A stretch of 64,000 nt of DNA from Streptomyces sp. NBC_00525 (lineage in GTDB: Bacteria > Actinomycetota > Actinomycetes > Streptomycetales > Streptomycetaceae). How positions within the stretch are numbered: position 1 is the stretch's first letter; each line of letters starts with the position of its first letter. Below the pieces are notes generated by a model. The model made no database searches. It had not been told where the DNA came from and was given only the letters and a program-made list of their open reading frames with translations. The position numbers and the translations under genes were made by a program. Of the stretch, positions 38,351 through 61,356 are shown one piece after another. Location: the NCBI RefSeq assembly GCF_036346595.1, contig NZ_CP107834.1, forward strand, positions 3,410,001 through 3,474,000, read 5' to 3'.

Positions 38351-39232
38351 GTGAGTAATCACGACGCGCTGGACGGCGGCTGTCGCTGTTCGCGTCAGCC
38401 TGGCGAAGCGACTTCGCACGCCTCCGGGGGATCGGTGAGGAGCACAGGACGGACTGCGAAATCCGACACAGAGGGGTTACTCGCTGTCACGGCGGGTGAA
38501 CTGCATGTCTTCTGTGTCGCAGATGTGTCCCCGACCGGCGCCGGTCGAGGAGGGGGGCCGGACGGCGATCGACCGCTGCGCCGGGTACTGGGACGCATCC
38601 TCGGTATGAGCGGGCCCGAAGTGCCGCTCGCGCGGGATGCGCTGGGACGTTTTCGGCTGCGCGACGGTCCCTTCGGCCTCGCCGTGTGCGGTGACGCGGG
38701 ACGGCTTACCTTGGCGCTCGTCAGTGGCTGCTCGGTCGCGCTGAGCCTGCACGAGGTTCCGGGCTCGGGACAGCTCGGGCCGGCGATGCCGTTCACCGAG
38801 AGGGAGCGGCGCTGGGCCCGGGCGGCCCCGGAGGGCAGGAGGGCGGAACGCCTGGCCCGGCTGTGGACCCGTAAGGAAGCCGCCCTCAGACTCATGGGCA
38901 GCCCGCTGTCCGCGGCGGCCGAGTCCGACGCGCTCGCCCCCGACGGGCTGGGAGATGTGCTGCTGCGCCGACCGGAGCGGGTGGCGTGGAGCGCGCCCCT
39001 GGGATCACCGCAGGAGGCATACGTGCGGAGCCTGGCGGCCGAGCCCGGTCTCGCGGCGGCCGCCGCTACGTCGGCGCCGGTCACCCGGGTGTGCATGTGG
39101 TACGTCGACTCGGCTGTTCGCGCCGAGGGCGACGACCCGGTCGGCGAGCCGGTGGGGGGAGGGAACGCCGGAGAACACCGGTCCTCCGTAGCTGGGGGAA
39201 CCACCCTGCCGTTGTTGTCGACCGTCTGGTAG
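38351..39232 (+). CDS. Sfp-type 4'-phosphopantetheinyl transferase-like protein (diverged)
   Basis: A 293-residue protein with LARLWTRKEAALRLMG, matching the WxxKEA motif of Sfp-type enzymes that convert apo-ACP to holo-ACP. The upstream Mg-binding motif, normally VGVDVE, aligns here with ALSLHEV. The Asp is lost and the Glu kept, and the usual HS substrate motif reads CGD, so activity may be reduced. The start is GTG at 38351 with GGGGAG upstream. In-frame codon 43 is TTA (38477-38479), the bldA-dependent leucine codon. It is the left border of the cluster, and the ACP at 49.0 kb is its natural client. It ends at a bidirectional terminator shared with the regulator gene. Confidence 0.65.
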   Translation: MSNHDALDGGCRCSRQPGEATSHASGGSVRSTGRTAKSDTEGLLAVTAGELHVFCVADVSPTGAGRGGGPDGDRPLRRVLGRILGMSGPEVPLARDALGRFRLRDGPFGLAVCGDAGRLTLALVSGCSVALSLHEVPGSGQLGPAMPFTERERRWARAAPEGRRAERLARLWTRKEAALRLMGSPLSAAAESDALAPDGLGDVLLRRPERVAWSAPLGSPQEAYVRSLAAEPGLAAAAATSAPVTRVCMWYVDSAVRAEGDDPVGEPVGGGNAGEHRSSVAGGTTLPLLSTVW

Positions 39233-39248
39233 GAGGCGGAACCGTGCC

Positions 39249-39280
39249 GACGCGGCCGTGGTGACCGCCCCGGCCGCGTC
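39249..39280. terminator. Bidirectional hairpin between PPTase-like and regulator genes
   Basis: Arms GACGCGGCC (39249-39257) and GGCCGCGTC (39272-39280) lie between two convergent stop codons (39232 and 39323). Confidence 0.65.
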
Positions 39281-39322
39281 CGCCCGGGCCCGGTCAGTCG
39301 TGCCGCCGGGGGTTCCCCTCGG

Positions 39323-40606
39323 CTACGGCATGACCAGCCCGTGCGGATCGGCTGCGGGATCGTCCCCGGCGTCGGCGTGGAGTTCGCGCCAGGTCTCCAT
39401 CGCGAGCCGGTAGGAGCCGAGTCGCTCGTAGCGGTCGGCCACCCAGCGGTAGTCGGCCTCCGCCTGAGCGGACCGGCCGGCGGCGCGATGGGCGCGGGCC
39501 CGGACGATGCCGCTCCATGCCTGATCGAGCAGGGGCAGGTCCGGGGTCTCGGGCACGATGTCCGGGACGAGCCGGTCGGCCTGCTCGGTCTCGCCCCGGC
39601 ACAGGGCGGTGAGGCACTCCAGCGCGGACTGCAGGCTGCGGGCGCTCGGCGAGCCGAGCAGTTCCGTCAGGGCACGCGACTGCTCGATCAGCGTCCGAGC
39701 GCCTTCATGTTCACCGGCCGCCAGGGCCGCCAGCGCGCGTGCCCGTACCAGCCGGGCCCGGTCCGCCAGATCGGCGCCGGCACCGGCCAGGGCGTCCGCC
39801 CTGTTCAGCAGGTCGAGTGCCTCCGACGGCCGGCCGGCCAGCCGACGCAACCCACCGGCGGCCCACAGGGCCGACGCGTCCACGTGAGGCGGCACACTTT
39901 GGCCGGTTCCCGCGAGGAGTTCCTCGCACAGGACATCGGCACGCTGCCAGTCACCGCTCTCGGCATACGCCGAGACGGCGGCAACGAGGGCTTCTGTGTG
40001 CTCGGTCGGGGCGACACCGAGTTCCCCGGTGATCCGCACGGCCTGTTCGGCGTAACTCACGCTCTCGGAGAGCCGGCCCAGTCGGCGCAGGGCCCGGGCG
40101 GTCTCGATCAGAACACGGGCCTGGAACATCGGGGCGTACTCGGTCATGGGGGCCGCCAGCAGGTCCGTCAGCACATCGAGCCGCGCCTCCTGCTCTGCGA
40201 GGTGCCCGAGCGTGACAGCGAGCTCCCAGCGGGCCTCCCACAGCACCTCCTCGGACCCGGCCGCCGCGTCAGGGGAGGTCAACTGGCCGATCAACGCGTT
40301 GAGATCGTCGCGGGCGCGCTCCCAGTCACCGGAGAGCTGGCCGGAGCGGGCCGCGACGAGGCGGCCGATCAGCTCCATGCGGGAGGGGTGCCGGTCGGGG
40401 GGCGGTGCGCTGAGATCCTCGATCCGGAGTCCGAGCCGCTCGACGATCGCCTTGGCCGCCTTGACACTCGGGGTCCTGCGGCCGCTTTCGACCAGTGAGA
40501 CATAACTGGCGGAAACCGTCTCGCTGGCGAGCTCGGATTGGGGCAGGCCCCGGGCACGGCGGATCTCGCGAATCCGCCTACCGAAATCTGGCTGATGGAT
40601 GGTCAA
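39323..40606 (-). CDS. HTH-TPR regulator, probable cluster-specific regulator
   Basis: A 427-residue protein. An N-terminal XRE helix-turn-helix (about 8-65: FGRRIREIRRARGLPQSELA, then SYVSLVESGRRTPSV) is followed by about 330 residues of helical repeats of the tetratricopeptide type. XRE-TPR proteins often sense small peptides or metabolites through the repeat domain. The start appears to be a TTG at 40606 (TIHQPDFG), with only a weak GCGAG ribosome site; no in-frame ATG lies near. It is divergent from the first MFS gene. Their shared 149-bp region carries phased TGACT/AGTCA motifs plus TTGACC...GGTCAA and CTACA...TGTAG inverted repeats, good candidates for its operators. Confidence 0.75.
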   Translation of the reverse strand: MTIHQPDFGRRIREIRRARGLPQSELASETVSASYVSLVESGRRTPSVKAAKAIVERLGLRIEDLSAPPPDRHPSRMELIGRLVAARSGQLSGDWERARDDLNALIGQLTSPDAAAGSEEVLWEARWELAVTLGHLAEQEARLDVLTDLLAAPMTEYAPMFQARVLIETARALRRLGRLSESVSYAEQAVRITGELGVAPTEHTEALVAAVSAYAESGDWQRADVLCEELLAGTGQSVPPHVDASALWAAGGLRRLAGRPSEALDLLNRADALAGAGADLADRARLVRARALAALAAGEHEGARTLIEQSRALTELLGSPSARSLQSALECLTALCRGETEQADRLVPDIVPETPDLPLLDQAWSGIVRARAHRAAGRSAQAEADYRWVADRYERLGSYRLAMETWRELHADAGDDPAADPHGLVMP

Positions 40607-40645
40607 CGTCTCGCTCGCAGCATGTTACGCGCACAGGAAGGACAA

Positions 40646-40725: not shown

Positions 40726-40761
40726 GACTGTCGAGTCACCGTATAGTCAATTTTCATGACT
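40726..40761 (+). promoter_or_regulatory. Leaderless promoter and phased operator of the MFS gene
   Basis: TATAGT (40742-40747) ends eight bases before the ATG at 40756, with no ribosome site, so the message is probably leaderless. Overlapping it are AGTCA at 40734 and 40745, TGACT at 40757 (11-12 bp steps), and the hyphenated palindrome GACTGTCGAGTC at 40726-40737. A protein bound here would cover the -10 and the start codon. Confidence 0.55.
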
Positions 40762-42012
40762 GAAGCTCTGCCCGCCGTGTCGCGTCCGTGGGGGATGCGC
40801 GCCCTCCTGGGTGCGGTGCTCATCAGTTCGGTTGGCGAGGCCATGGTGATCGTCGCCGTGCCCTGGTTCGTCCTGGAAGCGACGGGTAGTGCGGCGCGCA
40901 CCGGCGTCCTGCTCGCGGTCGGCGCGGTCTCCTCGGGGCTGGCCGGCTTGCTGGCCGGGCCGCTGGTGGACCGCTGGGGCTTCAAGCGCATGGCCGTCAC
41001 CGCCTGGGTCTTCGGGGGTGCCGCAGCCGCTTGCATCCCTGTGCTGCATCATCTCGGGCGGCTCGACTTCGCCACATTGATCGCTCTGACGGTGGCGGCG
41101 TCGGTGCTCGACGTGCCCGGTGTCGCCGCGGTGACGGGCCTCGTCCCCGGCCTCGCCGGAGCCGCGCGGATGCCCCTGGAGCGCGGCAACGCACTGCTCG
41201 GCGGCGTCCACCAGGCCGCCCAGCTGGCCGGGGTGCCGCTCGGCGGCCTGGCCACCGCGACACTCGGCGCCGACACCGTCCTCGCCCTGGACGCGCTCGG
41301 CTGCCTCCTGGCGGCTTTCTTGATCCTGGTCGGTGTCCCGTCGCCGGGGCCGACCCCGTCGGCGCCGGCTGCCGAGGCGCCGGCGGGCCGGGAACCATCC
41401 CTGGCTGTCCGCGCCTACCTGGACGAGATCCGGGTGGGACTGCGGCTTCTGTGGCGGGAGCGGCTGGTGCGGGCGCTGGCCTGCTCGGGTGCTGCGTTCA
41501 ATGCGTTGGACAGCGGTTTGGCGGGGGTGCTTCTGGCTGTATACGCGCACCGGGAGCTCGGCAGCGCCGCCGGGCTCGGGGTGATGCTGACGGCTTTCAG
41601 TGTCGGGGTGCTGGTGGGCACCGGCGCCTACGCGGTCGTCGGGCACCGGTTCGGGCGGCGGCCGGCCTACCTGGCGTCCGGGGCCGGCGTCGGGTTGCTG
41701 GTCGCGGGGCTCGCCGTGGTGTCCCCGTCGCTTCCGACGGCAGCCGTCCTGCTGGGCCTGCTGGGGGTGGTGGCCGCCCCCGTCGGCCCGGTGCGGACCA
41801 CCGCCTTCCAGCGCGAGCTGCGCGCCGAGACGTACGGGCGGGTCGTCTCCGCGGTCGACACGATCGGGACGGCCGCCGTACCACTGGGCGCGGCCGCCAC
41901 CGCTGTGGCCGCGGAGTCGCTGGGGGTGCGGCCCGCCCTCGCTGCCCTGGCCGTCGCCTACCTGGCGGTGGTGACCGCCTGCTGGAGATCCTCGGCACTG
42001 CGGACACTGTGA
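40756..42012 (+). CDS. MFS transporter (cluster exporter 1)
   Basis: A 418-residue permease with about 12 hydrophobic segments. The motif-A-like loop after helix 2 is GPLVDRWGFKRM. The closest general type is the actinobacterial MFS exporter group (MFS_1/MFS_3). It probably exports the cluster product and may confer self-resistance. It is divergent from the regulator gene and probably under its control through the TGACT motifs overlapping its promoter. The second MFS gene of the cluster is at 46.0 kb. Confidence 0.75.
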   Translation: MTEALPAVSRPWGMRALLGAVLISSVGEAMVIVAVPWFVLEATGSAARTGVLLAVGAVSSGLAGLLAGPLVDRWGFKRMAVTAWVFGGAAAACIPVLHHLGRLDFATLIALTVAASVLDVPGVAAVTGLVPGLAGAARMPLERGNALLGGVHQAAQLAGVPLGGLATATLGADTVLALDALGCLLAAFLILVGVPSPGPTPSAPAAEAPAGREPSLAVRAYLDEIRVGLRLLWRERLVRALACSGAAFNALDSGLAGVLLAVYAHRELGSAAGLGVMLTAFSVGVLVGTGAYAVVGHRFGRRPAYLASGAGVGLLVAGLAVVSPSLPTAAVLLGLLGVVAAPVGPVRTTAFQRELRAETYGRVVSAVDTIGTAAVPLGAAATAVAAESLGVRPALAALAVAYLAVVTACWRSSALRTL

Positions 42013-42146: not shown

Positions 42147-43388
42147 ATGACTTCCGCTCCAGCCCTTCCGGTCTCGAAGGCGCCGTCGAAGGGCCTGGTG
42201 AGCGCCGAACGGCTCCGGGCCCTGCATGCTGTCCGCCGCCTCCTGGCCGAGCACCCGCAGGAAGTGCACGAACTGCTCTGCGAGATATCGACCCACCGGG
42301 CCGCGGCCTACGAGATCGAGGCGGCCGTCGCGACTCTCGACGGTGCTGAGCAGGAGATCGCCCTGCACCGCCCTGCCACGGTCGGCCGGCTGGCTGTCTT
42401 CATGCCGTCCAACGTGATCCTGTACTCGTACGTGCTCTACCTGCTCGTCCCGGCACTGTATGCCCGGCAGCTGGTGTTCCGTCCCTCCAGCCAGGTCAAG
42501 GACCAGATGATGCGGCTGCACGGGATGCTCTCGGAGGTCCACGGCCTGCCGATCGAAGCGGCGCAGAGCAGTCAGCGGGAGTTCCTCGACGACCTCTCCG
42601 GCCGCGCGGATGTGGTGGTCTTCACCGGCGCCTACCGCAATGCCGAGCAGGTCAGGACCCGACTCGCCCCCGGGCAGCTCTTCCTGTTCCTGGGGTCCGG
42701 AGTGAACCCCTTCGTCGTCGCGCCGGGCGCCGACCTCGACGCCGCCGTACGGGACGCCGTCGAGATCCGCCTGCTCAACTCGGGTCAGGACTGCCTGGGC
42801 CCCGACCTGTTCTGTGTGCATGAGGATCTGCTTGAGCCGTTCACCAACGCGCTGCGGGCCGCGCTCGGCCGGCTGCGCCACGGGACCTACACCGACCCCG
42901 AGGCCGACTACGGACCCTTGTTCTACGAGGGGGCACTGGAGGAGGCCGCCCTGTACCTGGCGAAGAACCGCGACCGGATCGTGCACGGCGGCAACGTCGA
43001 CTTCCGCTCCCGCCGGCTGGACCCCGCGATCGTGGTGGTCCCCGAGGTGACGCCGCGCACCCAGCTGCCGGAGTTCTTCGCCCCGGTCTTCAACATCGCC
43101 GGCTACCGCGACGAACGGGCGCTGGCCGCGACGCTCACCACCGGTGTGTTCACCGAACGAGCCCTCGGCGCCAGCGTGTACGGCCGTGCGCCGGAGCTGG
43201 TGCGGGCGCTGCGCCGCCGTACCACGGTGACCACGGACACCACCCTGCTCGCCATCGACGACGGCAACGCGGCTTTCGGTGGCTTCGGCCGTATGGCCAA
43301 CTACATCACCGACGGCACGGGGATGTGGACGGAGCCGATTCTCGTCTCCAAGGCCGTGGCCGACCACCTGCCGCGGGGGCGGGCATGA
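42147..43388 (+). CDS. Aldehyde-dehydrogenase-fold oxidoreductase, possibly acyl-thioester reductase
   Basis: A 413-residue protein of the ALDH superfamily, shorter than the usual about 480 residues. It has an RPSSQVKDQ region in the cofactor domain, FTGAYRNAEQ (the FTGS-type motif) and the catalytic Cys216 in LNSGQDCLGPD. Where hydrolytic ALDHs carry the general-base Glu in LELGG, this protein reads LFLGSG, so the Glu is missing. That pattern is seen in CoA-dependent or acyl-reducing members, which suggests reduction of an acyl thioester or transfer to CoA/ACP rather than oxidation to a free acid. It is first gene of an ALDH-ThDP-AT-MFS run, with ATGA overlap to the next gene. Confidence 0.7.
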   Translation: MTSAPALPVSKAPSKGLVSAERLRALHAVRRLLAEHPQEVHELLCEISTHRAAAYEIEAAVATLDGAEQEIALHRPATVGRLAVFMPSNVILYSYVLYLLVPALYARQLVFRPSSQVKDQMMRLHGMLSEVHGLPIEAAQSSQREFLDDLSGRADVVVFTGAYRNAEQVRTRLAPGQLFLFLGSGVNPFVVAPGADLDAAVRDAVEIRLLNSGQDCLGPDLFCVHEDLLEPFTNALRAALGRLRHGTYTDPEADYGPLFYEGALEEAALYLAKNRDRIVHGGNVDFRSRRLDPAIVVVPEVTPRTQLPEFFAPVFNIAGYRDERALAATLTTGVFTERALGASVYGRAPELVRALRRRTTVTTDTTLLAIDDGNAAFGGFGRMANYITDGTGMWTEPILVSKAVADHLPRGRA

Positions 43389-45106
43389 GCGAGGCGAGAA
43401 AGCATCCCAGCGCCTGGCACGCCGTGGCCGACCACCTCCAGCACCTTGGCACGGAGGCGGTGTTCGGGCTGCCCGGCGACGACATGGACCTGCTCGGCGC
43501 CCTGGAGGACACGCACACCACTGTTGTGCTCTGCCGGGATCAGCGCAACGCGATGTTCATGGCCACCGGCCATGCCCTCGCCACGGGCCGGCCCGCGGTG
43601 TGCGCGGTGGGCAAGGGCCCCGCGCTGACCAACGCACTCACCGGTCTGCTGGAGGCGCGCTCGGCGGCGGCGCCGGTTCTGCTGGTGGCCGGCGGTACGG
43701 CGCTCGACCGCCTCGGCACCGGGGCCTTCCAGGAGCTCGACCAGCTCGGCGCCGTCCGGCCTTTCGTCAAGTGGGCCGAACGCGTGGACCGTGCCGACCG
43801 GCTGCCGGCCGCCCTGGAGAAGGCGACCGCCATGGCAGTCGGCGGGACGCCCGGCCCTGTCTACCTGGAGATCGCCGAACACGTGGCCGGCGAAGCCGTC
43901 GAGCAGCCCGGCCCCTGGCGACCGCCGGCACCGCAGCGGACCGGTGCGGACGAGGACGTGCTGCGGGCGACCGCCCGGCTGATCGGTGCGGCACGGCGGC
44001 CGGTGCTGCTGGTCGGCGGAGGATCGCGGCACCGCAACGCGGACCGGCGGATCGAGCGCTTCGCCGAGCTGCTCGGCGCCGCCCTGTTCAGCACGGCCTC
44101 GGGCCGGGGCACCGTCGCCGAGGACCACCCGCTGTACTGCGGGGTCTCCGGGCTGTACACCGTGCCGCCCGCAGACCGGCTGTGGCAGGAGACGGATCTG
44201 GTCGTGGCGCTCGGCAGCCGACTGGAGGAGACCGCCACATTCGGCTGGCCGGACCGCACGCGGCTGCCGGTCGTCCAGGTCGTCTCGGCCGAGGACTCCG
44301 TGGTCACCGGACACCCGGGCGCCCACGTGCTGGGTGATGTGGGCCGCACCGTGGCGGACTGGACGGCGGCCCTGCGGGAGCACCGCGCGGCCGGGGACTG
44401 GACGGACCGTGTGCGCGGCGTCCGCACCGAACTGGACGGGATCCCCGCCCGCCGGACGGACCAGCCGGACGACTCCGGGGCCGGGGAGCACAGGCGCCAC
44501 GGAGTGCCGGTGGCAGACGTGCTGGCCGGGATCGACCGGGCCGTGCCCGCCGACCGCGTCCTGGTCCAGGAGAACGGCCTGCAGGACATGTGGTCCTACT
44601 TCTTCCCGTACTGGTCGTGCGGTGCGACCGGCGGCTCGGTGGTGCCCAGCGAGCAGACCCCACTCGGCTTCGGAGCCGCCGCCGCGGTCGGGGTGGCTCT
44701 GGCCGAACCGGGCCGTCCGGTGGTCGCGGTGGCGGGTGACGGCGCGTTCAACCTCTTCCGCGGCGAACTGCCCACCCTGGCCGACAGCGGCGCGGCCGTG
44801 CTGTACGTGGTGCTGGACAACGGCGGATACGGGTGGCTTCAGGCCAATCTCGACCGCGTCTGCGGCGAGCGTTCCCGGTTTTCCTTCACCGGCGACCGGC
44901 CCACCGCCACAGCCGCCCTGGCCGGCGCGTACGGAATCGGCCACTGGCGGGTGGACACCCCTGACACGCTCGATCGGGCTCTCGCCGAAGCCTGGGCGCA
45001 CTGTGCGTCCGGTCGGGCGGCCGTGGTCGAGGTCGCTGTGTCCCTCAGCGACCGGCCGCCGGGCGTGGCGGAGCCGGCGGGCGACTTCCCGACGAAGCAT
45101 CAGTAG
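43385..45106 (+). CDS. Thiamine-diphosphate-dependent enzyme (acetolactate synthase/decarboxylase-like)
   Basis: A 573-residue ThDP enzyme with the three-domain layout of acetolactate synthases and 2-oxoacid decarboxylases. The N-terminal pyrimidine-binding domain has FGLPGDDMDLL. The C-terminal pyrophosphate domain has the GDG...NN-type motif (AVAGDGAFNLF, then VVLDNGGYGW). The activating Glu near residue 50 (normally HEQ) appears as Asp52 in CRDQRNAMFMATG, a conservative but unusual change. It could decarboxylate or carboligate a 2-oxoacid to give a starter unit or an aldehyde for the neighbouring ALDH-fold protein; this is inference from coupling (ATGA overlap). The substrate is unknown. 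Confidence 0.75.
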   Translation: MSEARKHPSAWHAVADHLQHLGTEAVFGLPGDDMDLLGALEDTHTTVVLCRDQRNAMFMATGHALATGRPAVCAVGKGPALTNALTGLLEARSAAAPVLLVAGGTALDRLGTGAFQELDQLGAVRPFVKWAERVDRADRLPAALEKATAMAVGGTPGPVYLEIAEHVAGEAVEQPGPWRPPAPQRTGADEDVLRATARLIGAARRPVLLVGGGSRHRNADRRIERFAELLGAALFSTASGRGTVAEDHPLYCGVSGLYTVPPADRLWQETDLVVALGSRLEETATFGWPDRTRLPVVQVVSAEDSVVTGHPGAHVLGDVGRTVADWTAALREHRAAGDWTDRVRGVRTELDGIPARRTDQPDDSGAGEHRRHGVPVADVLAGIDRAVPADRVLVQENGLQDMWSYFFPYWSCGATGGSVVPSEQTPLGFGAAAAVGVALAEPGRPVVAVAGDGAFNLFRGELPTLADSGAAVLYVVLDNGGYGWLQANLDRVCGERSRFSFTGDRPTATAALAGAYGIGHWRVDTPDTLDRALAEAWAHCASGRAAVVEVAVSLSDRPPGVAEPAGDFPTKHQ

Positions 45107-45129: not shown

Positions 45130-46032
45130 ATGTCCGTGGCGCTGTTCTTCCCAGGGTTGATACCCACCCGGTACGACACGATCAGCGAGTTCGTGGCGAC
45201 CAACGAACAGACGAGAAGGAGGTTCGCTGAGGCGGACGAGGTGCTCGGCTACTCGCTGATCGGCGCCTATCACGATGCGGCCATCTACGACTGGGAGGTG
45301 TACGAGGCCGGATTCATGGCCCTCAGCCTGGGGCTGGCCGACTGGGCGGAGGAGAATCTGGGAGGCCGTCCCACGGTGTGCGGCGGACAGAGTTTCGGCG
45401 CGTTCATGGCGGTGGTCCGGGCGGGCACGCTCTCCTACGCCGAGGGCCTCCGACTGATCCAGCGCAGTGTCGTGGTGGAACGCGACTACTTCGACTCGCT
45501 GGCCGAGCCTCTGGGCTGCCACTTCTTCTACCGCCTCCCGTATGCCACCGTGGCGGCACTCATCAAGGAGTTCGAGGCACGAGGGGAGTGGGTCGAGCTG
45601 TCGGTCGCGCTGGACGACGACGTGCACGCGGTGTCGGCCACCATGGCCACGCTGGAACGGTTCGAGCAGCGGGTGCGGGAGAAGGGCGGTTTCCCCTTCT
45701 ACACCATGAACCGGGCCGAACACTGCTCCGCCGTGAGTGATCTGAGGCAACGTCTGCAGGACGAGGTGTACAGCACGGTCGAGTGGCGGCCGGCCCGGAT
45801 TCCCGTGGTGTCCGACGTGGACGGGCGGCTGCTGACCGACCCCGAGGAGATCGAGCAGGACCTGCTCGACGGCTGGACCACTCCCGTGCACTGGGAGACG
45901 GTCGTACGGGGCCTGAAGGACGCCCGCGTCGAAGAGGTGTGGATCCCCGGCGCGCGCAGCATGTTCGCACGTATCACCAAGAACTCCTTCGTTACCAGGG
46001 TCATCTCTCCCAAACTGGTGGCGGCTTCGTGA
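45130..46032 (+). CDS. Malonyl-CoA:ACP transacylase-like acyltransferase (FabD type)
   Basis: A 300-residue stand-alone acyltransferase. It has an N-terminal ALFFPGLIP (the FPGQG-type start), catalytic Ser88 in CGGQSFGAF, and His198 in NRAEHCSAV. It would load extender (malonyl) or starter acyl groups onto the ACP at 49.0 kb. FPGLIP replaces FPGQG, so substrate choice may differ from FabD. The ATG follows GAGGATG, 23 bp behind the ThDP gene; the TGA overlaps the GTG of the MFS gene. Confidence 0.75.
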   Translation: MSVALFFPGLIPTRYDTISEFVATNEQTRRRFAEADEVLGYSLIGAYHDAAIYDWEVYEAGFMALSLGLADWAEENLGGRPTVCGGQSFGAFMAVVRAGTLSYAEGLRLIQRSVVVERDYFDSLAEPLGCHFFYRLPYATVAALIKEFEARGEWVELSVALDDDVHAVSATMATLERFEQRVREKGGFPFYTMNRAEHCSAVSDLRQRLQDEVYSTVEWRPARIPVVSDVDGRLLTDPEEIEQDLLDGWTTPVHWETVVRGLKDARVEEVWIPGARSMFARITKNSFVTRVISPKLVAAS

Positions 46033-47647: not shown

Positions 47648-47672
47648 GCTCGGCCGGGCTCAGCGGCCGAGC
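47648..47672. terminator. Bidirectional hairpin between MFS and P450 genes
   Basis: Arms GCTCGGCCG and CGGCCGAGC (9 bp each) around a 7-base loop overlap the P450 stop codon at 47660 and follow the MFS stop at 47630. Confidence 0.6.
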
Positions 47673-48892: not shown

Positions 48893-48995
48893 GGTGCTCC
48901 TGGTAGATCGGTGAACGAGTGAGTGCGGTGGGGAGAAGCGGCCGGTGTCGCCGCAGCCGACCGGCCGCAGCGACACCGGCGGGCGTGGCCGCGGC

Positions 48996-50244: not shown

Positions 50245-50342
50245 CTCACCCCTCCATGACACGTGAGTAATGGTTATGACAGAGCTGCATAAGGGAGTTC
50301 TAACAGCGGAATCGGCTTCTGGTCAACGCGATAGAGGACTGC

Positions 50343-54424: not shown

Positions 54425-54717
54425 GAGGAGGAAACGCATATGTCGATCGTTCTCGAACTGCAGGGCCTTGAGGTTCCGGCCGAGGAAGCCGCTCTGGTCG
54501 TCAGCAGCGCCAGCAACCACTGCCTCTGAGACACAGACGGCCGGGCAGCAGCCCAGCGCCGCCCCGAACTCCGGTCGCCGATACCGGTGACCGGTCCCAT
54601 GAGATCCGAGCATCCGAGAGGAGGAAACACATATGTCGATCGTTCTCGAACTGCAGGGCCTTGAGGTCCCGGCCGAGGAGGCCGCTCTGGCCGTGAGCAC
54701 CGCCAGCAACCACTGCT
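54425..54717 (+). repeat. Tandem duplication of the precursor gene
   Basis: The unit 54425-54523 (ribosome site, leader and core) is repeated at about 54618-54716 with around ten substitutions, offset by 193 bp. The intervening spacer is not duplicated. Confidence 0.8.
54440..54529 (+). CDS. Lanthipeptide precursor peptide 1 (29 residues)
   Basis: Leader MSIVLELQGLEVPAEEAAL is followed by VVSSASNHCL. The LELQ box matches the conserved class III leader helix (I/L-L-E/D-L-Q) that LanKC enzymes recognise. The last residues contain Ser22, Ser25 and Cys28 in SxxSxxC spacing, the pattern that gives a labionin or avionin ring, plus a spare Ser23 and a final Leu. At 29 residues it is unusually short: the leader is under 20 residues and the core about 9-10. 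AGAGGAGGAAAC precedes the ATG, a very strong ribosome site. It is nearly identical to the second copy 193 bp downstream. Confidence 0.9.
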   Translation: MSIVLELQGLEVPAEEAALVVSSASNHCL

Positions 54718-54719
54718 GA
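54633..54719 (+). CDS. Lanthipeptide precursor peptide 2 (28 residues)
   Basis: It has the same leader as copy 1 (MSIVLELQGLEVPAEEAAL), followed by AVSTASNHC. Ser22, Ser25 and the C-terminal Cys28 keep the SxxSxxC spacing. Cys is the last residue, as needed for oxidative decarboxylation to an avionin if a LanD enzyme acts. Differences from copy 1 are V20A, S23T and loss of the final Leu, plus a few silent changes. The GAGAGGAGGAAACACAT ribosome region is also duplicated. A perfect 34-bp palindrome follows 13 bp after the stop. Confidence 0.9.
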   Translation: MSIVLELQGLEVPAEEAALAVSTASNHC

Positions 54720-54802: not shown

Positions 54803-55573
54803 ATGAGCGGGCTGCTTGCCGGCAGAAGACTGGTCGTCACCGGCATTATCAGCGAGAGCTCCATCGCCTTCTCCGTGGCCAGGCTGGCCCAGGAACAGGG
54901 CGCCACCGTCGTTCTGACCGCCTACGGCCGGCCGACCCTGGTCAGGCGCCTGGCCCGCCGACTACCGCAGGAACCCCCCGTCGTGGAGCTCGACGTCACC
55001 GACGCCACGCATCTGGACTCGCTCGCCGACCGGCTGGGAGAGCACATGGACGGGGTCGACGGCATCCTGCACTCCATCGCCCACGCTCCGGAAGGCTGCC
55101 TCGGCGGCACCTTCGTCGACGCGCCCTGGTCCGATGTCTCCGCCGCCCTGCACACCTCCACCTACTCCCTGAAGGCGCTGGTCGCCGGCTGCAGGCCGCT
55201 GCTGCGCCCCGGCGCCTCGGTGGTCGGCCTGGACTTCGACGCGTCCCGGACGTGGCCCGACTACGACTGGATGGGCGTTGCCAAGGCCGGCCTGGAGGCC
55301 ACCAGCCGCTACCTGGCCCGTCACCTGGGCCCGGACGGTATCCGGGTCAACCTCGTCGCGGCGGGGCCGCTGCGTACTCTCGCAGCCCGCGGTATCGGCG
55401 GTGACGGCTCCGCGTTCGAGGACGACTGGGCCCGCACGGCACCGCTCGGGTGGAATCCCGCCGACGCCGGGCCCGTCGCCCGCACCTGTGTGGCCCTGCT
55501 CTCCGACTGGATGCCGGCCACCACCGGCGAGATCGTCCACGCCGACGGCGGTCATCACGTGATCGGCGCCTGA
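54803..55573 (+). CDS. FabI/InhA-type enoyl-ACP reductase
   Basis: A 256-residue SDR of the enoyl-reductase branch. VVTGIISESSIAFSVARLAQ and EQGATVVLTAYGR match the InhA/FabI N-terminus. HSIAHAPEG is the substrate-loop strand. The active site has Tyr-x6-Lys in YDWMGVAKAGLE, the spacing of FabI and not the YxxxK of ketoreductases. It should reduce 2-enoyl-ACP to saturated acyl-ACP with NADH. The ATG follows GAGGAGG. The TGA overlaps the next ATG, continuing the operon ketosynthase, synthetase, precursors, reductase, dehydratase, ligase. Confidence 0.88.
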   Translation: MSGLLAGRRLVVTGIISESSIAFSVARLAQEQGATVVLTAYGRPTLVRRLARRLPQEPPVVELDVTDATHLDSLADRLGEHMDGVDGILHSIAHAPEGCLGGTFVDAPWSDVSAALHTSTYSLKALVAGCRPLLRPGASVVGLDFDASRTWPDYDWMGVAKAGLEATSRYLARHLGPDGIRVNLVAAGPLRTLAARGIGGDGSAFEDDWARTAPLGWNPADAGPVARTCVALLSDWMPATTGEIVHADGGHHVIGA

Positions 55574-56082
55574 TGGACGCCACACCCGGAACCCGGGCCG
55601 CCCGCCCCGGGGACGCGGTTCTGGCCTCGTCGCCCTACGACGTCGAGGCCGAGAAGATACGGGAGTTCGCGGCGGCGGTCGGCGAGACCGGTGCCGCATG
55701 TCACGACGAGGAGGCTGCCCGGGCACTCGGGCATCCCGGCCTTCTGGCCCCGCCGACGTTCCTGACCGTGCCCGCCGCGCGGGTGGAGGACATGCTGCTG
55801 CGCCGGGCCGGTATCGCCCCGGACGGACTCGTCCATCGCGAGCAGCGCATCCGGCTGTACCGACCGGTCCGGGCCGGCGACGTGCTGCATCCAGTCGTAC
55901 GCCTCCGACAGTCGGGCCCCGTCGCCGGGCGCCGGGCGGTGACGGTGACGACGGAGTTCCGGGATGCGGAGGGGGCGCCGGTCGGTGTCCTCGACGCGAC
56001 CCTGCTGCTGCCGGCGGACGCCCGGCCCGCCCGCGGCCACCGACACGGCACCGACACAGAAGCACAGGAGGAGTTGGAATGA
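55573..56082 (+). CDS. HadA/MaoC-like hot-dog dehydratase
   Basis: A 169-residue hot-dog-fold protein resembling the HadA subunit of mycobacterial 3-hydroxyacyl-ACP dehydratase. SPYDVEAEKIREFAAAVGE is followed by ALGHPGLLAPPTFLTV and REQRIRLYRPVRAGDVL. The hydratase motif region reads GETGAACHD where catalytic members have GDxNPIH, so a His is retained but the spacing and Asp differ. Mycobacterial HadA relies on a catalytic HadB partner, and none is present here. It should dehydrate 3-hydroxyacyl-ACP ahead of the enoyl reductase. It is coupled by TGATG upstream and ATGA downstream. Confidence 0.75.
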   Translation: MDATPGTRAARPGDAVLASSPYDVEAEKIREFAAAVGETGAACHDEEAARALGHPGLLAPPTFLTVPAARVEDMLLRRAGIAPDGLVHREQRIRLYRPVRAGDVLHPVVRLRQSGPVAGRRAVTVTTEFRDAEGAPVGVLDATLLLPADARPARGHRHGTDTEAQEELE

Positions 56083-57503
56083 CTTGGACAGCGTCGCCCA
56101 GGATGCGTGACGCGGAGACCGCGCTGCACGGCGACGCACTGCTGCGACGGGTGGCCGGGGCGTCCCGGGCCCTGCGCGGACGCGGCGTCCGGTCCGGCGA
56201 CAGGGTGCTGGTCAGGGGGGACAACTCGCTCGACTACGTCGTGACGCTGCTCGCCCTGGTCCACCTCGACACGTCCCTCGTCCCCGTGGACCACCGCACC
56301 TCTCCGGCCGACGTGAGCGCCATGGCCGCGCGATGCGACGCGCGCTGGCTGGTCGGCGACGGCACCCGCCCGGACCGGATTCCGGCCGAGCGGGTACTCG
56401 CTCCGCAGGTCCTGGCCGCCGCTCAGGCCGAGGACGCGTCCGCTGCGGCGGACATCGACCTTGAGCCGTGGTTCCGCCGTCGTGACGCCCTGGTGCTGTC
56501 GTCCTCGGGCACGACCGGCCGTCCCAAGGGGATCGTCAAGTCAGGACCCGCCGTCCGCGACAACACGCTGCGCACCATCGAGGCCATGGGGTACCGGCCC
56601 GACGACGTCCTCGCGCCACTGCTGCCGTTCTCCCACCAGTACGGCCTGTCCGTCGTCCTGGTGTGGTGGCTCGCCCGCTGCACCCTCCTGATCACCCCGT
56701 ACCAGCGCCTCGACCTCGCCGTCGGCCAGGCCGCCGCCGGCGGGGCGACGGCGGTGGACGCGGCGCCCTCGACCTACCACACCCTGCTTCAAGTGGTACG
56801 CCGCAGGCCCGACGTCCGCGCCGGACTCGCCGGGGTGCGTATCTGGGGAGTGGGCGGAGCACCCCTGCCCCGACCGCTCGCCGATACCTTCCGGGAGACC
56901 ATGGGACGCCCCCTGCTCGACGGCTACGGCCTCACCGAACTCGGCAACGTGGCGCTGGCCACCCCCGAGTTCCCGGTCGGCTGCGGCCGGGCGCTTCCGG
57001 GGGTCGGCCTGCGGGTCGTACGGCCGGACGGGACGCTCGCCCGGCCCGGCGAGCCGGGCGAGATCGAGGTCCGCTCGCCGGGACTGATGGAGTGCTACCT
57101 CGCTGCCGACGGCGCCCTTGACCCGGTCGTCGACACCGGGTGGTACCCGACCGCCGACCTGGGGCATCTGGACGCGGAGGGCAATCTGCACGTGCACGGT
57201 CGCAACCGTGCCGTGCACCGGCTCGGCTTCACGCTCTATCCCGAGAGCCTGGAGCGCAAGGCCGAGCTCTGCGGTCGGCCGGTGAAGGTGGTGGCCGCCC
57301 AGGACGTGCGCCGTGGCGCCTCCCTCCACTTCGTCGTCGCCGACCCCGACGGCGGTGAGCCGCGCGACTGGCGCCGCCGCCTCGCCCCGCACCTCGCGGA
57401 CTACGAGCAGCCCAACTCGGTGCACGTGATCCGTGAATTCCCGCTCGGTACCAACGGCAAGGTGGACACCGCCGCCCTGGGCGCGTTGATCGGCGTGGGC
57501 TAG
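56079..57503 (+). CDS. Acyl-AMP ligase (ANL superfamily)
   Basis: A 474-residue adenylate-forming enzyme. The P-loop is LSSSGTTGRPKGI (141-151), with LLPFSHQYG (A4-like), GYGLTELGN (A5), GWYPTADLGHLD (A7), GRNRAVHRLGF (A8) and the C-terminal Lys461 in NGKVD (A10). No carrier domain is attached. It probably activates a free carboxylic acid and loads it on the cluster ACP (or CoA) as starter of the chain. The N-terminus is short compared with the about 520-residue acyl-CoA synthetases. It is ATGA-coupled to the dehydratase gene and the last gene of the rightward operon. Confidence 0.85.
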   Translation: MTWTASPRMRDAETALHGDALLRRVAGASRALRGRGVRSGDRVLVRGDNSLDYVVTLLALVHLDTSLVPVDHRTSPADVSAMAARCDARWLVGDGTRPDRIPAERVLAPQVLAAAQAEDASAAADIDLEPWFRRRDALVLSSSGTTGRPKGIVKSGPAVRDNTLRTIEAMGYRPDDVLAPLLPFSHQYGLSVVLVWWLARCTLLITPYQRLDLAVGQAAAGGATAVDAAPSTYHTLLQVVRRRPDVRAGLAGVRIWGVGGAPLPRPLADTFRETMGRPLLDGYGLTELGNVALATPEFPVGCGRALPGVGLRVVRPDGTLARPGEPGEIEVRSPGLMECYLAADGALDPVVDTGWYPTADLGHLDAEGNLHVHGRNRAVHRLGFTLYPESLERKAELCGRPVKVVAAQDVRRGASLHFVVADPDGGEPRDWRRRLAPHLADYEQPNSVHVIREFPLGTNGKVDTAALGALIGVG

Positions 57504-57580: not shown

Positions 57581-57612
57581 AGCCGATTGTCACATTGCCG
57601 AGCATCCCTACG

Positions 57613-58785
57613 TCAGTGCCGCCGTAGCACCACGGACGCGTTGTTGCCGCCGAACCCGAAGCTGTTGACAGCGGCGAGCCGTGCGCCGTGCAGCGGCTGT
57701 GCGTGCAGCGGCAGGTGTACGCGCTCGGTGGGTTCCGGCCGGACCAGTCCGGCGGTGGGCGGGGCGGTGCCTGTGCGCAGGGCCAGCGCCGCGGCCGCGA
57801 TCGCCGGTACGGCGGAGACATGCAGCAGATGCCCGATGGCGCCCTTGTGCGAACTGACCGGTACGGTCGGTGAGTCCAGCTCCGCGGCGACGGCCTCGAT
57901 GGCCCGCAGCTCGGCCGCGTCGCCCTGGGGCGTTCCCGTGGCGTGAGCGTGTACATGGTCCAGCCGGTCCGCGTCGGCGTCGCGCAGCGCGGCGCGCAGG
58001 CAGTCGGTGACCACCTCGGCGGAGGAGGCCGCCGGCTTCTCGCCCGCCACCCGGCAGCAGACGCCGGCCACCGTCAGATCGGCGGACAGGCCGCGCGCGC
58101 GTGCGGCGGACGCCGATTCGAGCAGGAGTGCGCCGCCGCCCTCACCGAGCGAGATGCCCGCCCGACCGCTGTCGAAGGGGCGGGCGGCACCGCGGGCCAC
58201 AGCTCGCACGACGCGCATACTGGCGTACTCGTAACGGTTGAGCACGGAGGCACCCGCCACCAGGACCGCAGGAGCCGCACCGGCCCGCAGCGTGGTCCGG
58301 GCGAGGCCCACCGCGAAGGCGGCGGAGGCGCAGGCGTGCGACAGATGGAGAACCTGGGCGTCGGCCGCCGACCGCTTGCCGTCCCGCCCACCGAGCGGTC
58401 CGCCGGGGGCATCGAGGAATCCGTCGGGCGGGCCGAAGAACTCGGTCTCCTCGCCGTCGAGCTGAGGATTCCGGCCGGGCAGCGGACCCCGCGCCTGGCC
58501 GACGAGGAGCACCAGGGAGCCGGGAGGCAGGGCCGGGAGCCGGGCGGCGGTGAGGGCCTCCTCGACGGCGGCCAGCGTGAAGTGCTGTTTGCGGGGGCCG
58601 TCGGCCGGGCCGGGCAGTCCGGGAACCTCGCCCACCGGCTCGCCCTCGTACTCGGCGGAGGCGAAGCGCCGCGCGGGCCGCAGAGCGGTGTCTCCGGCCA
58701 CCAGCCCGGACCAGAACGTGCCGACACCGGTACCCAGCGGGGTGACGAGTCCCATGCCGCTGATCACCACGCGTTGCCCGGTCAT
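57613..58785 (-). CDS. Beta-ketoacyl-ACP synthase (ketosynthase 2)
   Basis: A 390-residue condensing enzyme, shorter and more divergent than ketosynthase 1. It still has Cys152 (LSHACASAAF), His281 (VHAHATGTPQGD), Lys314 and His319 (SHKGAIGHLLH), so it is a competent ketosynthase by sequence and not a chain-length factor that has lost Cys. It may handle another chain length or the starter condensation. The start is the ATG at 58785, overlapping the TGA of the 148-residue gene upstream (ATGA), which suggests a stoichiometric partner. Confidence 0.85.
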   Translation of the reverse strand: MTGQRVVISGMGLVTPLGTGVGTFWSGLVAGDTALRPARRFASAEYEGEPVGEVPGLPGPADGPRKQHFTLAAVEEALTAARLPALPPGSLVLLVGQARGPLPGRNPQLDGEETEFFGPPDGFLDAPGGPLGGRDGKRSAADAQVLHLSHACASAAFAVGLARTTLRAGAAPAVLVAGASVLNRYEYASMRVVRAVARGAARPFDSGRAGISLGEGGGALLLESASAARARGLSADLTVAGVCCRVAGEKPAASSAEVVTDCLRAALRDADADRLDHVHAHATGTPQGDAAELRAIEAVAAELDSPTVPVSSHKGAIGHLLHVSAVPAIAAAALALRTGTAPPTAGLVRPEPTERVHLPLHAQPLHGARLAAVNSFGFGGNNASVVLRRH

Positions 58786-59228
58786 ACGACCTCTCCCCGC
58801 ACGGTGGCGGACACCAGCCAGCCGGCCTGCGCCGGAGTGTCGTCGATCAGGGCGATCCGGCACTCGACGGCCGGCCCGGTCCCCCTCGCGAGGGCTGTGG
58901 CGAGCGCGGCCCAGGCGGCGTCCCCGTCCAGCAGATAGCAGGCGCCGCGGTGCCCGGCGGCCTCGGCGCGGGGACGGATCAGCTCGGCCGCTTCCAGGGC
59001 GATCGAGTCCGAAGGGCGCAGTCGTCGCGAGTCATGGCAGCGGGCGACGAACCGGTGGGCCGCGAACCGGCCGTAGTCCCCGCACAGTACATACAGCGGC
59101 GCATCGGCCCGTACGGCCTCCGGCAGCGCACCGAACGCCCGTGTCAGGACCGAGTCCACCGCTGTCGCCGGGGTCGGATGCGGTTCTCCGGGACCGGACT
59201 TCGCCTCGTACCGCCGCGTCACCGTCAT
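58782..59228 (-). CDS. Unknown 148-residue protein coupled to ketosynthase 2
   Basis: A small soluble protein (YVLCGDYGRFAAHRFVARC, then RPSDSIALEAAELI, and a C-terminal CRIALIDDTPAQAGWLVSA). I do not recognise the family. The DSIALEAA segment superficially recalls a carrier-protein DSL site but lacks the surrounding acidic helix pattern. The tail resembles the short ketosynthase-like accessory proteins of some type II systems. Translational coupling (ATGA) with ketosynthase 2 suggests complex formation. It is first gene of this leftward pair, divergent from the glycosyltransferase. Confidence 0.5.
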   Translation of the reverse strand: MTVTRRYEAKSGPGEPHPTPATAVDSVLTRAFGALPEAVRADAPLYVLCGDYGRFAAHRFVARCHDSRRLRPSDSIALEAAELIRPRAEAAGHRGACYLLDGDAAWAALATALARGTGPAVECRIALIDDTPAQAGWLVSATVRGEVV

Positions 59229-59262
59229 CTGTCCCTGCCTTGCAAGTCTTCGACACAGAGCA

Positions 59263-59299
59263 TGTCAAGTACAGTAAGTTGCAGTCATGAATTGTCAAG
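59263..59299. promoter_or_regulatory. GTCA repeats in the divergent ketosynthase 2/glycosyltransferase promoter
   Basis: GTCA occurs at 59264, 59284 and 59294 (10-bp register, with GTAA at 59274), within TGTCAAG (59263 and 59293) and AGTCA (59283). On the minus strand TTGACA reads at two places. The core agrees with the TGACT/AGTCA motifs of the other cluster promoters. Confidence 0.5.
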
Positions 59300-59312
59300 A
59301 AGGTGGGTGGGT

Positions 59313-60545
59313 ATGTCGCTGCAGCTGCTGTTCGTGAGCATCGCAGGGCACGGTCATGTGAACCCGACACTGGCCGTGGTCGAGGAGCTCACCCGCCGCG
59401 GCCACCGGGTCGACTACGTCGTGGCCGAGGAGCACGCGGAGTCTGTCGCACGCGCCGGTGCCCGACCGCTGTCGTACCGCTTGCCCGAAGGCGACGGGCA
59501 GACCCCGCCGCCCGACGACGAGTTCGGCCTGTCGTCGATGGACCTCCTGCACGAGACCGAACTCGCCCTCCAGGCGGCCGAGCGGCGCCCCGGCGGGCGG
59601 CAGGGGGTGGACATGGTGGTCTACGACGGTCTGGCCTGGGCCGGGCGCGTGCTTGCCGCGGCCTGGGAGCTGCCCGGCGTCGAACTGTGGCCCTCCTTCG
59701 TCTCCAACGCGCACTTCTCCCTGGAGGCCGAGTTCCTCGGCGACCGGATGGTCACGGCCGACACGGTGGCCCTCGCCCGGGAACTGCCCGCCCTGCTGGC
59801 CCGGCACGGACTGCCGGGCGTCCCTGCGGGCCGGTTCCTGAGGCACGGGGAGGGGCTGCGCCTCGTGTGCCTGCCATGGGAGTTCCAGTACCGGGGGGAG
59901 ACCTTCGACGACAGCTTCGCCTTCGTCGGACCCTGTCTGAGCGGCGCCCGGGCCCAGGGTGGCTGGCGGCCGAAGGGCGACGGCAGGCCCGTGCTGCTGG
60001 TCTCGCTCGGCACCCTCTACAGCGAGCAGCCGGAGTTCTTCCGGCTGTGCGCGCAGGCATTGGCGGACCTGCCCTGGCAGGTCGTGCTGTCCGGCGGCGG
60101 CCGCGTCGCCGCCGACGCCGTCGGCACCCTGCCGCCCCATGTCGAAATGCACGCGCGCGTGCCCCAACTCGATGTTCTCGCCCATGCATCCGCCTTCGTC
60201 ACCCATGCGGGCATGGGCAGCGTGATGGAGGCCGTCGTCCACCGTGTCCCCATGGTCGCCCTGCCCCAGATGGGGGAGCAGCGGGCCGTGGCCGAGCGGA
60301 TCGCCGAACTCGACCTGGGCGTACGGCTCGACCCCGCCGAGCTGACCGCCGCCGCACTGCGCGAGGCCGTCCTCGGCGTCGCGGAAGACGAGCGCGTCCG
60401 GGCCGGTCTGGAGCGGATGAGCAGGCAGGCGGCGGCCGCCGGCGGGGCCGTCACCGCCGTGGACCGCATCGAGGCGTACGCCGCCACCGCCCGGCCGTCG
60501 TCGCTCGCGACCCACCGTGCGCCGGCGGTCACGCGCACCGCTTGA
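59313..60545 (+). CDS. MGT/GT1-family glycosyltransferase
   Basis: A 410-residue GT-B enzyme of the macrolide-glycosyltransferase type. The N-terminal acceptor domain starts with LLFVSIAGHGHVNPTLAVV, containing the catalytic His region HGHVNP. The C-terminal donor domain has LVSLGTLYSEQPEFF and the nucleotide-sugar signature FVTHAGMGSVMEAVVHRVP with LPQMGEQ. It should glycosylate the product, or act in self-resistance as the MGT subfamily often does; sequence cannot decide. The start is the ATG at 59313 with AAGGTGGG upstream. Divergent from the ketosynthase 2 pair. No sugar-biosynthesis genes are present, so a common UDP-sugar donor is likely. Confidence 0.85.
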   Translation: MSLQLLFVSIAGHGHVNPTLAVVEELTRRGHRVDYVVAEEHAESVARAGARPLSYRLPEGDGQTPPPDDEFGLSSMDLLHETELALQAAERRPGGRQGVDMVVYDGLAWAGRVLAAAWELPGVELWPSFVSNAHFSLEAEFLGDRMVTADTVALARELPALLARHGLPGVPAGRFLRHGEGLRLVCLPWEFQYRGETFDDSFAFVGPCLSGARAQGGWRPKGDGRPVLLVSLGTLYSEQPEFFRLCAQALADLPWQVVLSGGGRVAADAVGTLPPHVEMHARVPQLDVLAHASAFVTHAGMGSVMEAVVHRVPMVALPQMGEQRAVAERIAELDLGVRLDPAELTAAALREAVLGVAEDERVRAGLERMSRQAAAAGGAVTAVDRIEAYAATARPSSLATHRAPAVTRTA

Positions 60546-60630
60546 CACCCCGGCTGCGCCGGGCCGGGGTCCGCCGCAGCCGTCCGGGCGCGCGTCGGCC
60601 GACGGCGTCCGCAATCCCGAGAGGACAGTG

Positions 60631-61356
60631 ATGAAGGGTAAATTCGTCCGGCTCGAACGGCCCTCGCAGGACGACTACGCACTCATGGCCCAGTGGTTCG
60701 GCCCCGACTCGGTAGTCGCCGTCATGACCGCGACCGAGGGCGAGGCCGTCTCGGCGGAGGACTTCCGCAACCTCGACCACAGCGGAGGACTGAGGCAGTT
60801 CTCCGTCCATGACCGGAACGGCAAGACGGTCGGCGCTGTCCACTACCGAGCGCACGGGCCGGTCGGCGGATACGTCATCGGTGGTGCCATTGGCGACCCC
60901 GAGCTGTGGAGCCAGGGGTACGGCGCGGAGGCGTTCGATCTGCTGCTCGACCACCTCTTCCACGCGCGCGGTGCCCACCGGGTCCAGTTCACCACCGCGA
61001 TGTACAACAAGAACGTGCTGCGGCTGGCCACACGCGCGGGCTTCGTCCTCGAAGGCATCCTGCGCGAGTACTACTACCTCGACGGCTGCCACCACGACGC
61101 AGTCATCTGGTCCCTCCTGCGTAAGGAGTACTACGGCGTCGTGGAGTACCTCAAGCGCACCGAGCCCGGCTTCACGCTCCCGGAGGCGATACCGGAGTCC
61201 GACAAGGTCGAGGCCCGCCGCATCGTGGCCGACTACCTCGCGGGTACGGAGGGCGAGTCCTCCACCCGCCTCCTGCTCGCGCGGGTCGCCGAGGAGACGG
61301 CAAACGGGCGACTGAGAGACGAGCACCCGGCGAAGGAGCCGATGGCCGCGACCTGA
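60631..61356 (+). CDS. GNAT-family acyltransferase
   Basis: A 241-residue GNAT protein. The acyl-CoA-binding motif A is around WSQGYGAEAFDLLLDHLF, followed by VQFTTAMYNKNVLRLATRAGF (motif B), typical of RimJ/RimL-type N-acyltransferases. There is an extra helical C-terminal extension of about 70 residues. In the lipolanthine goadvionin a GNAT enzyme joins a polyketide acyl chain to the peptide N-terminus; the same role is the natural hypothesis here. Resistance by acetylation is the alternative. The start is the ATG at 60631 with GAGAGGAC upstream. It is the last gene of the cluster, ending at a strong hairpin. Confidence 0.75.
   Translation: MKGKFVRLERPSQDDYALMAQWFGPDSVVAVMTATEGEAVSAEDFRNLDHSGGLRQFSVHDRNGKTVGAVHYRAHGPVGGYVIGGAIGDPELWSQGYGAEAFDLLLDHLFHARGAHRVQFTTAMYNKNVLRLATRAGFVLEGILREYYYLDGCHHDAVIWSLLRKEYYGVVEYLKRTEPGFTLPEAIPESDKVEARRIVADYLAGTEGESSTRLLLARVAEETANGRLRDEHPAKEPMAAT

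Follow-up and report, generated by a model that had tools for sequence, protein, structure and literature searches.

A conserved Streptomyces gene cluster that joins a class III lanthipeptide synthetase to discrete fatty acid synthase-like enzymes

Lipolanthines and a related Streptomyces locus

Lipolanthines are lanthipeptides with an N-terminal acyl chain that comes from fatty acid or polyketide enzymes. Microvionin, nocavionin, the goadvionins and nocaviogua are examples, with a class III lanthionine synthetase (LanKC) and a short core peptide, SxxSxxC in nocaviogua. Known lipolanthines use type I polyketide synthases (PKS). In goadvionin biosynthesis a GNAT-family enzyme reportedly joins the acyl chain and the peptide, and the authors of that work are said to have noted GNAT homologues beside genes for fatty acid synthases (FAS) and for ribosomally synthesized and post-translationally modified peptides (RiPPs). 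Here we describe a 64,000-nucleotide window (the whole stretch of DNA analysed; coordinates are positions in it) from the 7.1 Mb genome of Streptomyces sp. NBC_00525, in which the genes at about 38.4-61.4 kb are one conserved cluster around a LanKC gene and two precursor genes. A GNAT also lipidates microvionin, and the goadvionins and lipoavitides are other N-lipidated class III peptides (PMC13060382, preprint). Few lipolanthines are known and some of them inhibit Gram-positive bacteria (PMC10435860). In the lipoavitides, a non-modular FAS acylates the N-terminus of a ribosomal peptide via the acyltransferase LpvE (Ren et al. 2024, Nat Chem 16:1320). Because lipoavitides are already published, a discrete FAS acting on a ribosomal peptide is not new in itself.

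We propose, with a probability of roughly 0.6, that the cluster encodes one pathway to a short lanthipeptide that is N-acylated, works like a lipolanthine, has a labionin-type ring, and carries a chain started by a cassette of an acyl-AMP ligase, an aldehyde dehydrogenase (ALDH)-fold protein, and a thiamine diphosphate (ThDP) enzyme. The lipid and peptide genes overlap: the last base of ketosynthase (KS) gene KS1 is 51759 and the first of LanKC is 51756, an ATGA overlap that an initial annotation of this DNA had claimed. That annotation also assigned both kinds of genes to one pathway, a view borne out by the co-conservation of the gene set in 13 of 13 clusters, one of them rearranged. Since 12 further genomes of the genus have the same genes, for the most part in this order, the cluster is not a chance arrangement.

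Among 199 genomes of the genus, including the host's own, LanKC has relatives at 71% identity in three others, and the other matches listed are at or below 52%. A scan with an alignment of the diiron protein gave 11 loci, all from Streptomyces and including G042 and G048 (G and L numbers are our handles for genomes and loci); these, G036, and the window make up the 13 clusters. All 13 contain the ALDH, ThDP enzyme, acyltransferase (AT), acyl carrier protein (ACP), diiron protein, KS1, LanKC, InhA-like reductase, AMP ligase, precursors, first MFS exporter, and regulator. The GNAT and a 4'-phosphopantetheinyl transferase (PPTase) are each found in 12, with the misses at contig or fetched ends, and the second MFS exporter is also found in 12. 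A true KS2 is present in 11 clusters and the remaining two stop at a contig end; the profile count of 13 includes two cross-matches to KS1. Gene order is mostly preserved. The GNAT gene lies beside LanKC, between it and KS1, in five clusters, KS2 is on the opposite side in two, and in S. iconiensis the blocks are rearranged with all of them still together. More variable are a P450 (8/13), an agmatinase-family gene (8/13), a glycosyltransferase (5/13), and a HadA-like gene (detected in 3/13), and FabG-like genes were seen by eye in five relatives' clusters.

The LanKC matches Pfam RamC_N (9e-79) and Pkinase. Its match to LANC_like is weak by hmmscan (31.3 bits, cut-off 23.2), a LANC_like profile search of the genome did not list it, and its sequence has no CHG motif, as expected of a zinc-free cyclase domain. 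It thus has the predicted make-up of a class III enzyme: a RamC-type lyase, a kinase, and a zinc-free cyclase domain. The two tiny precursors that the initial annotation placed beside it are 28 and 29 residues long and have the class III pattern of an LxLQxLE leader and a Ser/Ser/Cys core; two substitutions and a terminal Leu set them apart. The 13 clusters encode 26 precursors. All have the SxxSxxC core, with Cys as the last residue in 21 and one or two residues beyond it in five. The spacing equals that of the ring in nocaviogua, Ala-Avi2-Val-Ser-Avi5-Asn/Asp-Gly-Avi8 (PMC10435860). One branch of the LanKC tree (support 95/92) parts 25 short-core LanKCs from 27 others, although the deep order among the 25 is not resolved.

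The genes of the cluster are as follows.

38462-39232, + strand: PPTase-like gene; Pfam ACPS 25.4 bits (cut-off 25); start uncertain
39323-40606, - strand: helix-turn-helix (HTH)/tetratricopeptide repeat (TPR) regulator; Pfam HTH_3 and TPR
40756-42012, + strand: first MFS exporter; Pfam MFS_1
42147-43388, + strand: ALDH-fold protein; Pfam Aldedh 8.4e-27; nucleophile Cys retained, general-base Glu gone
43385-45106, + strand: ThDP enzyme; three TPP_enzyme domains; CRDQR region with Gln for Glu
45130-46032, + strand: VinK-like AT; Pfam VinK_C 52.1 bits (cut-off 27); without the malonyl Arg
46029-47630, + strand: second MFS exporter, with a C-terminal membrane part; Pfam MFS_1
47660-48976, - strand: cytochrome P450; Pfam p450 1.8e-35
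48996-49244, - strand: ACP; NCBIfam NF002147 100.9 bits (cut-off 84)
49297-50262, - strand: R2-like diiron protein; Pfam Ribonuc_red_sm 48.5 bits (cut-off 33.6)
50464-51759, + strand: KS1, FabF-type ketosynthase; NCBIfam fabF 509.7 bits (cut-off 493.75)
51756-54350, + strand: LanKC, class III lanthionine synthetase; NCBIfam NF038151 1031.6 bits (cut-off 575)
54440-54529, + strand: precursor 1, 29 aa, core VSSASNHC plus L; MSIVLELQGLEVPAEEAALVVSSASNHCL
54633-54719, + strand: precursor 2, 28 aa, core VSTASNHC; MSIVLELQGLEVPAEEAALAVSTASNHC; NCBIfam lanthi_III_a 33.7 bits (cut-off 22)
54803-55573, + strand: InhA/FabI-like enoyl-ACP reductase; NF005908 394.1 bits (cut-off 299)
55573-56082, + strand: HadA-like dehydratase subunit; NF040624 HadA 84.3 bits (cut-off 180), FAS1_DH_region 78.5 bits (cut-off 22)
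56079-57503, + strand: acyl-AMP ligase; Pfam AMP-binding 1.2e-51 (scanned as 55698-57503)
57613-58785, - strand: KS2, ketosynthase; Pfam Ketoacyl-synt_C 70.2 bits (scanned as 57613-58863)
58782-59228, - strand: small protein upstream of KS2, conserved in 5 relatives (43-49% identity); without a Pfam match
59313-60545, + strand: MGT-family glycosyltransferase; TIGR01426 382.2 bits (cut-off 260)
60631-61356, + strand: GNAT, the proposed peptide N-acyltransferase; Pfam Acetyltransf_3 51.3 bits (cut-off 25.4)

Family scans recovered all of the other components listed in the initial annotation (ACP, two KSs, HadA-like and InhA-like proteins, AMP ligase, GNAT, diiron protein, ThDP enzyme, ALDH, and glycosyltransferase), and its view that the chain is made by discrete FAS-like enzymes is supported by this gene set. 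To these we add the P450 (47660-48976), two MFS exporters, the PPTase, the HTH/TPR regulator, and the small protein next to KS2. The suggested glycosylation fared less well: the glycosyltransferase is there but occurs in only 5 of 13 clusters, so it would be at most a local decoration. The C-terminal membrane part of the exporter at 46029-47630 is a separate small open frame in G200.

More distant genomes hold related arrangements. A second layout in seven genomes has the ALDH and ThDP enzyme at 67-73%, a KS, the GNAT, LanKC at 45-47%, and three short precursors in each; six of the seven also have the AMP ligase, HadA-like protein, InhA, and ACP, while the G194 contig stops before that side. 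At greater distance, G370 and G515, the latter from another family and with AT and diiron genes, repeat the pairing of cassette and LanKC. G436 has a GNAT, LanKC, precursors, and a flavin adenine dinucleotide protein. In G620, two type I PKS proteins with KS, AT, ketoreductase (KR), dehydratase (DH), and ACP domains accompany a GNAT and LanKC. The family occurs in at least 13 Streptomyces genomes, with a distant form in one genome of another family.

Enzymes for acyl assembly and transfer

The GNAT is rare, found in 8 of 394 genomes of the class at 1e-20 (own genome included). It is present in 21 of 22 short-core LanKC loci that were not selected by GNAT, and the exception, G200, is cut by a contig end. 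No GNAT was found within the fetched stretch of 27 other class III LanKC loci. These controls began as 28 loci, of which G094 was moved to the short-core set; 25 of the 27 have a longer precursor, and the patterns used detected none in L132 or in G095, whose downstream flank is almost absent. Based on this association we propose that the GNAT is the N-acyltransferase of the short lanthipeptide. Relatives of this GNAT also lie beside FabG- and AT-like genes at L153:12467-13834 (G762) and L156:6301-7764 (G740), where a radical SAM/SPASM peptide maturase (below the model cut-off) takes the place of LanKC. These two loci are possibly another type of acyl-RiPP hybrid.

The AT was called FabD-like in the initial annotation. 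An AT is present, but it is VinK-like, with a VinK_C domain. Its four best PDB chains, which we take to be VinK, score 164-166 bits, compared with 56 for the next. The FabD Arg binds malonyl; it is retained in two FabD-type comparison proteins from the host and is replaced by Ser in the AT of all 13 clusters. We considered this protein as a malonyl loader and rejected that role because of this Ser. A second VinK-like acyltransferase, identified by eye, is encoded in the same genome near a large type I PKS region (L180, G000:C1:2967050-2967862). The nearest PDB relative of the diiron protein is an R2-like ligand-binding oxidase, and the residues taken as metal ligands (E94, E124, H127, E196, E231, and H234) are invariant in 4 of 4 sequences. 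The translations of KS1 and KS2 both contain a catalytic Cys by eye. No FabH-type (β-ketoacyl-ACP synthase III, KAS III) gene was found among the Pfam-scanned cluster genes, which include two FabF-type KSs; KS2 has only a sub-cut-off match to ACP_syn_III.

We surveyed residues of the ALDH and ThDP enzymes in 26 distinct loci. The ALDH (GQxC) retains the nucleophile Cys in all 26, and in all 26 the general-base Glu, in a column set by alignment, is changed to Phe, His, or Tyr. In canonical ALDHs this Glu hydrolyses the acyl-enzyme. Because this general base is lost, no acid release is expected from what is generally known of the ALDH mechanism, and the protein should pass on an acyl group or make an aldehyde instead. 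The ThDP enzymes have the motif CRDQR in 26 of 26 loci, with Gln where BbmA has the Glu of KHE; the Glu of ThDP enzymes activates the cofactor. The AMP ligase and ALDH form one polypeptide in four loci (two confirmed by Pfam), and such a fusion is read by frame in G515 and, by frame and open-frame length, probably in G370.

The cassette also occurs apart from lanthipeptide genes. Fourteen ALDH relatives have 43-52% identity; of six examined, five have the AMP-ligase/ALDH/ThDP run and no LanKC in the fetched 19-20 kb. Such loci include L112:8122-15862, L113:8908-14968, and similar ones (G256, G240, and G213). A KS is present in four of them (the fifth has a KS fragment), an ACP in three, and a FabG-like gene in four. 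Since the cassette stands in loci without LanKC, mostly with a KS, it most likely belongs to acyl assembly. Perhaps it converts an acid to an aldehyde that then undergoes carboligation as the start of the chain. In L112 the cassette adjoins a condensation-domain protein and an enzyme with a pyridoxal phosphate aminotransferase fold.

The agmatinase-family gene follows InhA in 8 of the 13 clusters. It matches PF00491 (1.5e-86) and scores above the cut-off of TIGR01230, and its nearest structures are agmatinase 2, proclavaminate amidinohydrolase, 3-guanidinopropionase, and guanidinobutyrase. Microvionin and nocavionin carry guanidino fatty acids (PMC10373908), as does nocaviogua (PMC10435860). 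This gene together with these chains suggests that the chain starter is a guanidino or amino acid. The window genome has only a homologue at 41%, outside the cluster, so the window product may keep the guanidine.

Proposed pathway and competing explanations

While the gene set, its linkage, the core motif, the residue changes, the fusion, and the GNAT association can be read directly from the DNA, we infer the ring type, the chain, the acylation site, and every chemical step that follows. LanKC would phosphorylate both core Ser residues and eliminate them, and a labionin-type ring would be closed with the Cys; host proteases would cleave off the leader. A custom acyl chain would be made on the cluster ACP by KS1, KS2, the HadA-like and InhA-like proteins, and a FabG from the host or cluster. 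To start it, the AMP ligase would adenylate an acid, a step at the ALDH Cys would reduce it to the aldehyde, and the ThDP enzyme would couple this aldehyde to a second unit. The VinK-like AT would shift the acyl group between carrier proteins, and the diiron protein, with the P450 where present, would oxidise the chain. The GNAT would then place it on the peptide N-terminus and the MFS pumps would export the product. In its most specific form, with a Glu-less ALDH and a Gln-type ThDP carboligase starting the chain by reduction and carboligation, the KSs, VinK-like AT, and GNAT completing it, and a labionin octapeptide as its acceptor, this scheme is tentative.

Several observations weigh against the pathway as proposed. 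The window cluster contains neither a ketoreductase nor a HadB partner, and therefore host enzymes must serve; even the HadA-like gene is detected in few clusters, and the window cluster has no agmatinase-family gene. The ThDP enzyme matches a 2-hydroxyacyl-CoA synthase (168 bits) nearly as well as its nearest PDB relative, BbmA (171 bits), and with so small a margin homology does not fix its reaction. Several cluster contigs are short (21.7, 29.7, and 54.7 kb), and a gene for LanD, the cysteine decarboxylase for avionin, could lie past their ends. In the window genome itself, two LanD-like genes identified by eye far from the cluster could act in trans. Since G620, the comparator with a type I PKS, is likewise without a LanD match, the absence of LanD does not separate the cluster from all lipolanthine-like loci. 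No metabolite is linked to the cluster.

The cluster might instead encode a true lipolanthine. A LanD encoded elsewhere could decarboxylate the C-terminal Cys to give avionin, as the position of Cys at the end of 21 of 26 precursors, the two LanD-like genes of the window genome, and locus L053 of G094 would allow. That very small locus (C1:872046-872489 and 875417) combines a LanKC and a GNAT with a precursor of 27 residues whose last is Cys, an adjacent LanD-like gene and, by eye, an ABC transporter. For the macrocycle of lipolanthines, a review names MicKC and the decarboxylase MicD (PMC10373908), and the enzymes of avionin formation are described as not yet determined in another source (PMC9415263). 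However, PF02441, the LanD family, has no match near the cluster in any of the 13 genomes, within the limits of contig ends: there is none on the cluster contig in 11 (some of these contigs are short), and in the remaining two the closest match lies at about 300 and 800 kb. The draft assembly of G207 has only two PF02441 matches, CoaBC- and UbiX-like by eye, and five precursors have residues after the Cys, though trimming could remove them. We judge the avionin ring unlikely. Because no LanD lies near the 13 clusters we favour labionin, with a LanD in trans as its rival. A 26.5-bit PF02441 match in G194 was considered and judged by eye not to be LanD-like. We also dropped the post-Cys residues as proof against avionin, given possible trimming and a G620 precursor that ends in CGG. 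In G620 (L159:7684-18623, LanKC extending into L160), the sole PF02441 match in the genome has a frame of 410 aa, the size of CoaBC, and this mic-like locus is apparently without LanD.

The start of the chain might instead be derived from arginine. The ThDP enzyme would decarboxylate 2-ketoarginine, the ALDH would yield 4-guanidinobutyrate or its thioester for loading by the ligase, and the agmatinase-family enzyme would later turn the guanidine into an amine. The agmatinase-family gene and its nearest structures, the guanidino chains of the lipolanthines cited above, and a 198.8-bit match of the ThDP enzyme to 5-guanidino-2-oxopentanoate decarboxylase all point this way. That model has a cut-off of 500, though, and others score up to 256; the ALDH lacks the residue that releases acid, the agmatinase gene is missing from the window cluster, and the scanned cluster genes include no aminotransferase. 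This route is therefore doubtful as it stands, but a guanidino acid may serve as the ligase substrate in the N-acylated lanthipeptide pathway that we prefer. Alternatively, the ThDP/ALDH pair could modify the peptide while the lipid genes supply an ordinary fatty acid. In favour of this, all 11 loci with at least 68% identity in 392 genus genomes (window included) have LanKC beside the ALDH gene. We consider it very unlikely, since in loci that lack LanKC the pair is next to the AMP ligase or fused to it, mostly together with a KS. It is highly improbable that these are two neighbouring clusters, one for a plain class III lanthipeptide and the other for a lipid or polyketide unrelated to it. 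The five of six more distant loci with a cassette and no LanKC would fit such a pair, but the KS1 and LanKC genes overlap, all 13 clusters keep the parts together, even after rearrangement in S. iconiensis, the GNAT lies between KS1 and LanKC in five, and the pairing recurs at greater distance in G370 and G515.

Comparison with known systems

The proposed lipolanthine-like character holds for the short SxxSxxC core, the GNAT, and the class III LanKC; with no LanD found, avionin, the mark of lipolanthines, is unproven. For this reason we do not file the cluster as a lipolanthine one, even though it would work like one. It also differs from lipolanthines in its discrete FAS-like enzymes. The nearest sequence comparator for synteny, used in place of the mic and gdv clusters, was G620 with its type I PKS, GNAT, and LanKC; its LanKC, our stand-in for the mic and gdv sequences, falls on the short-core side of the 95/92 branch but on a long branch. 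Lipoavitide biosynthesis reportedly starts with a KAS III and gives short branched acyl chains, whereas this cluster shows no KAS III gene and has the AMP-ligase/ALDH/ThDP cassette instead.

Individual enzymes resemble those of other pathways. Of solved structures, VinK of vicenistatin, which acts in a modular PKS macrolactam pathway, is closest to the AT (166 bits), in line with the Pfam VinK_C match. An AMP ligase with a reductase that takes an acid to an aldehyde resembles LuxE/LuxC or carboxylic acid reductase logic; these are other families, and here there is no luciferase and a ThDP enzyme and KS follow. Among PDB relatives of the ThDP enzyme, BbmA scores highest, by a small margin; it has Glu where the cluster motif has Gln. 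CybE, CsmA, and BbmA are described as α-hydroxy-β-keto acid synthases (PMC12395478, on CybE/CsmA function, where the last is spelled BpmA).

In the open-licence literature we found no report of a cluster of this kind with the cassette, a VinK-like AT, or the diiron protein. None of the three is known from described lipolanthine clusters. What looks unusual here is the AMP-ligase/ALDH/ThDP/KS cassette in a lipolanthine-like setting. The family gives access to short lipopeptides that are genetically encoded and have a discrete acyl pathway, and the chemistry of the cassette, which recurs in other pathways, is testable. If our reading is true, the lipid chain would start in a way that we know from no lipolanthine, using a module common to other Streptomyces pathways.

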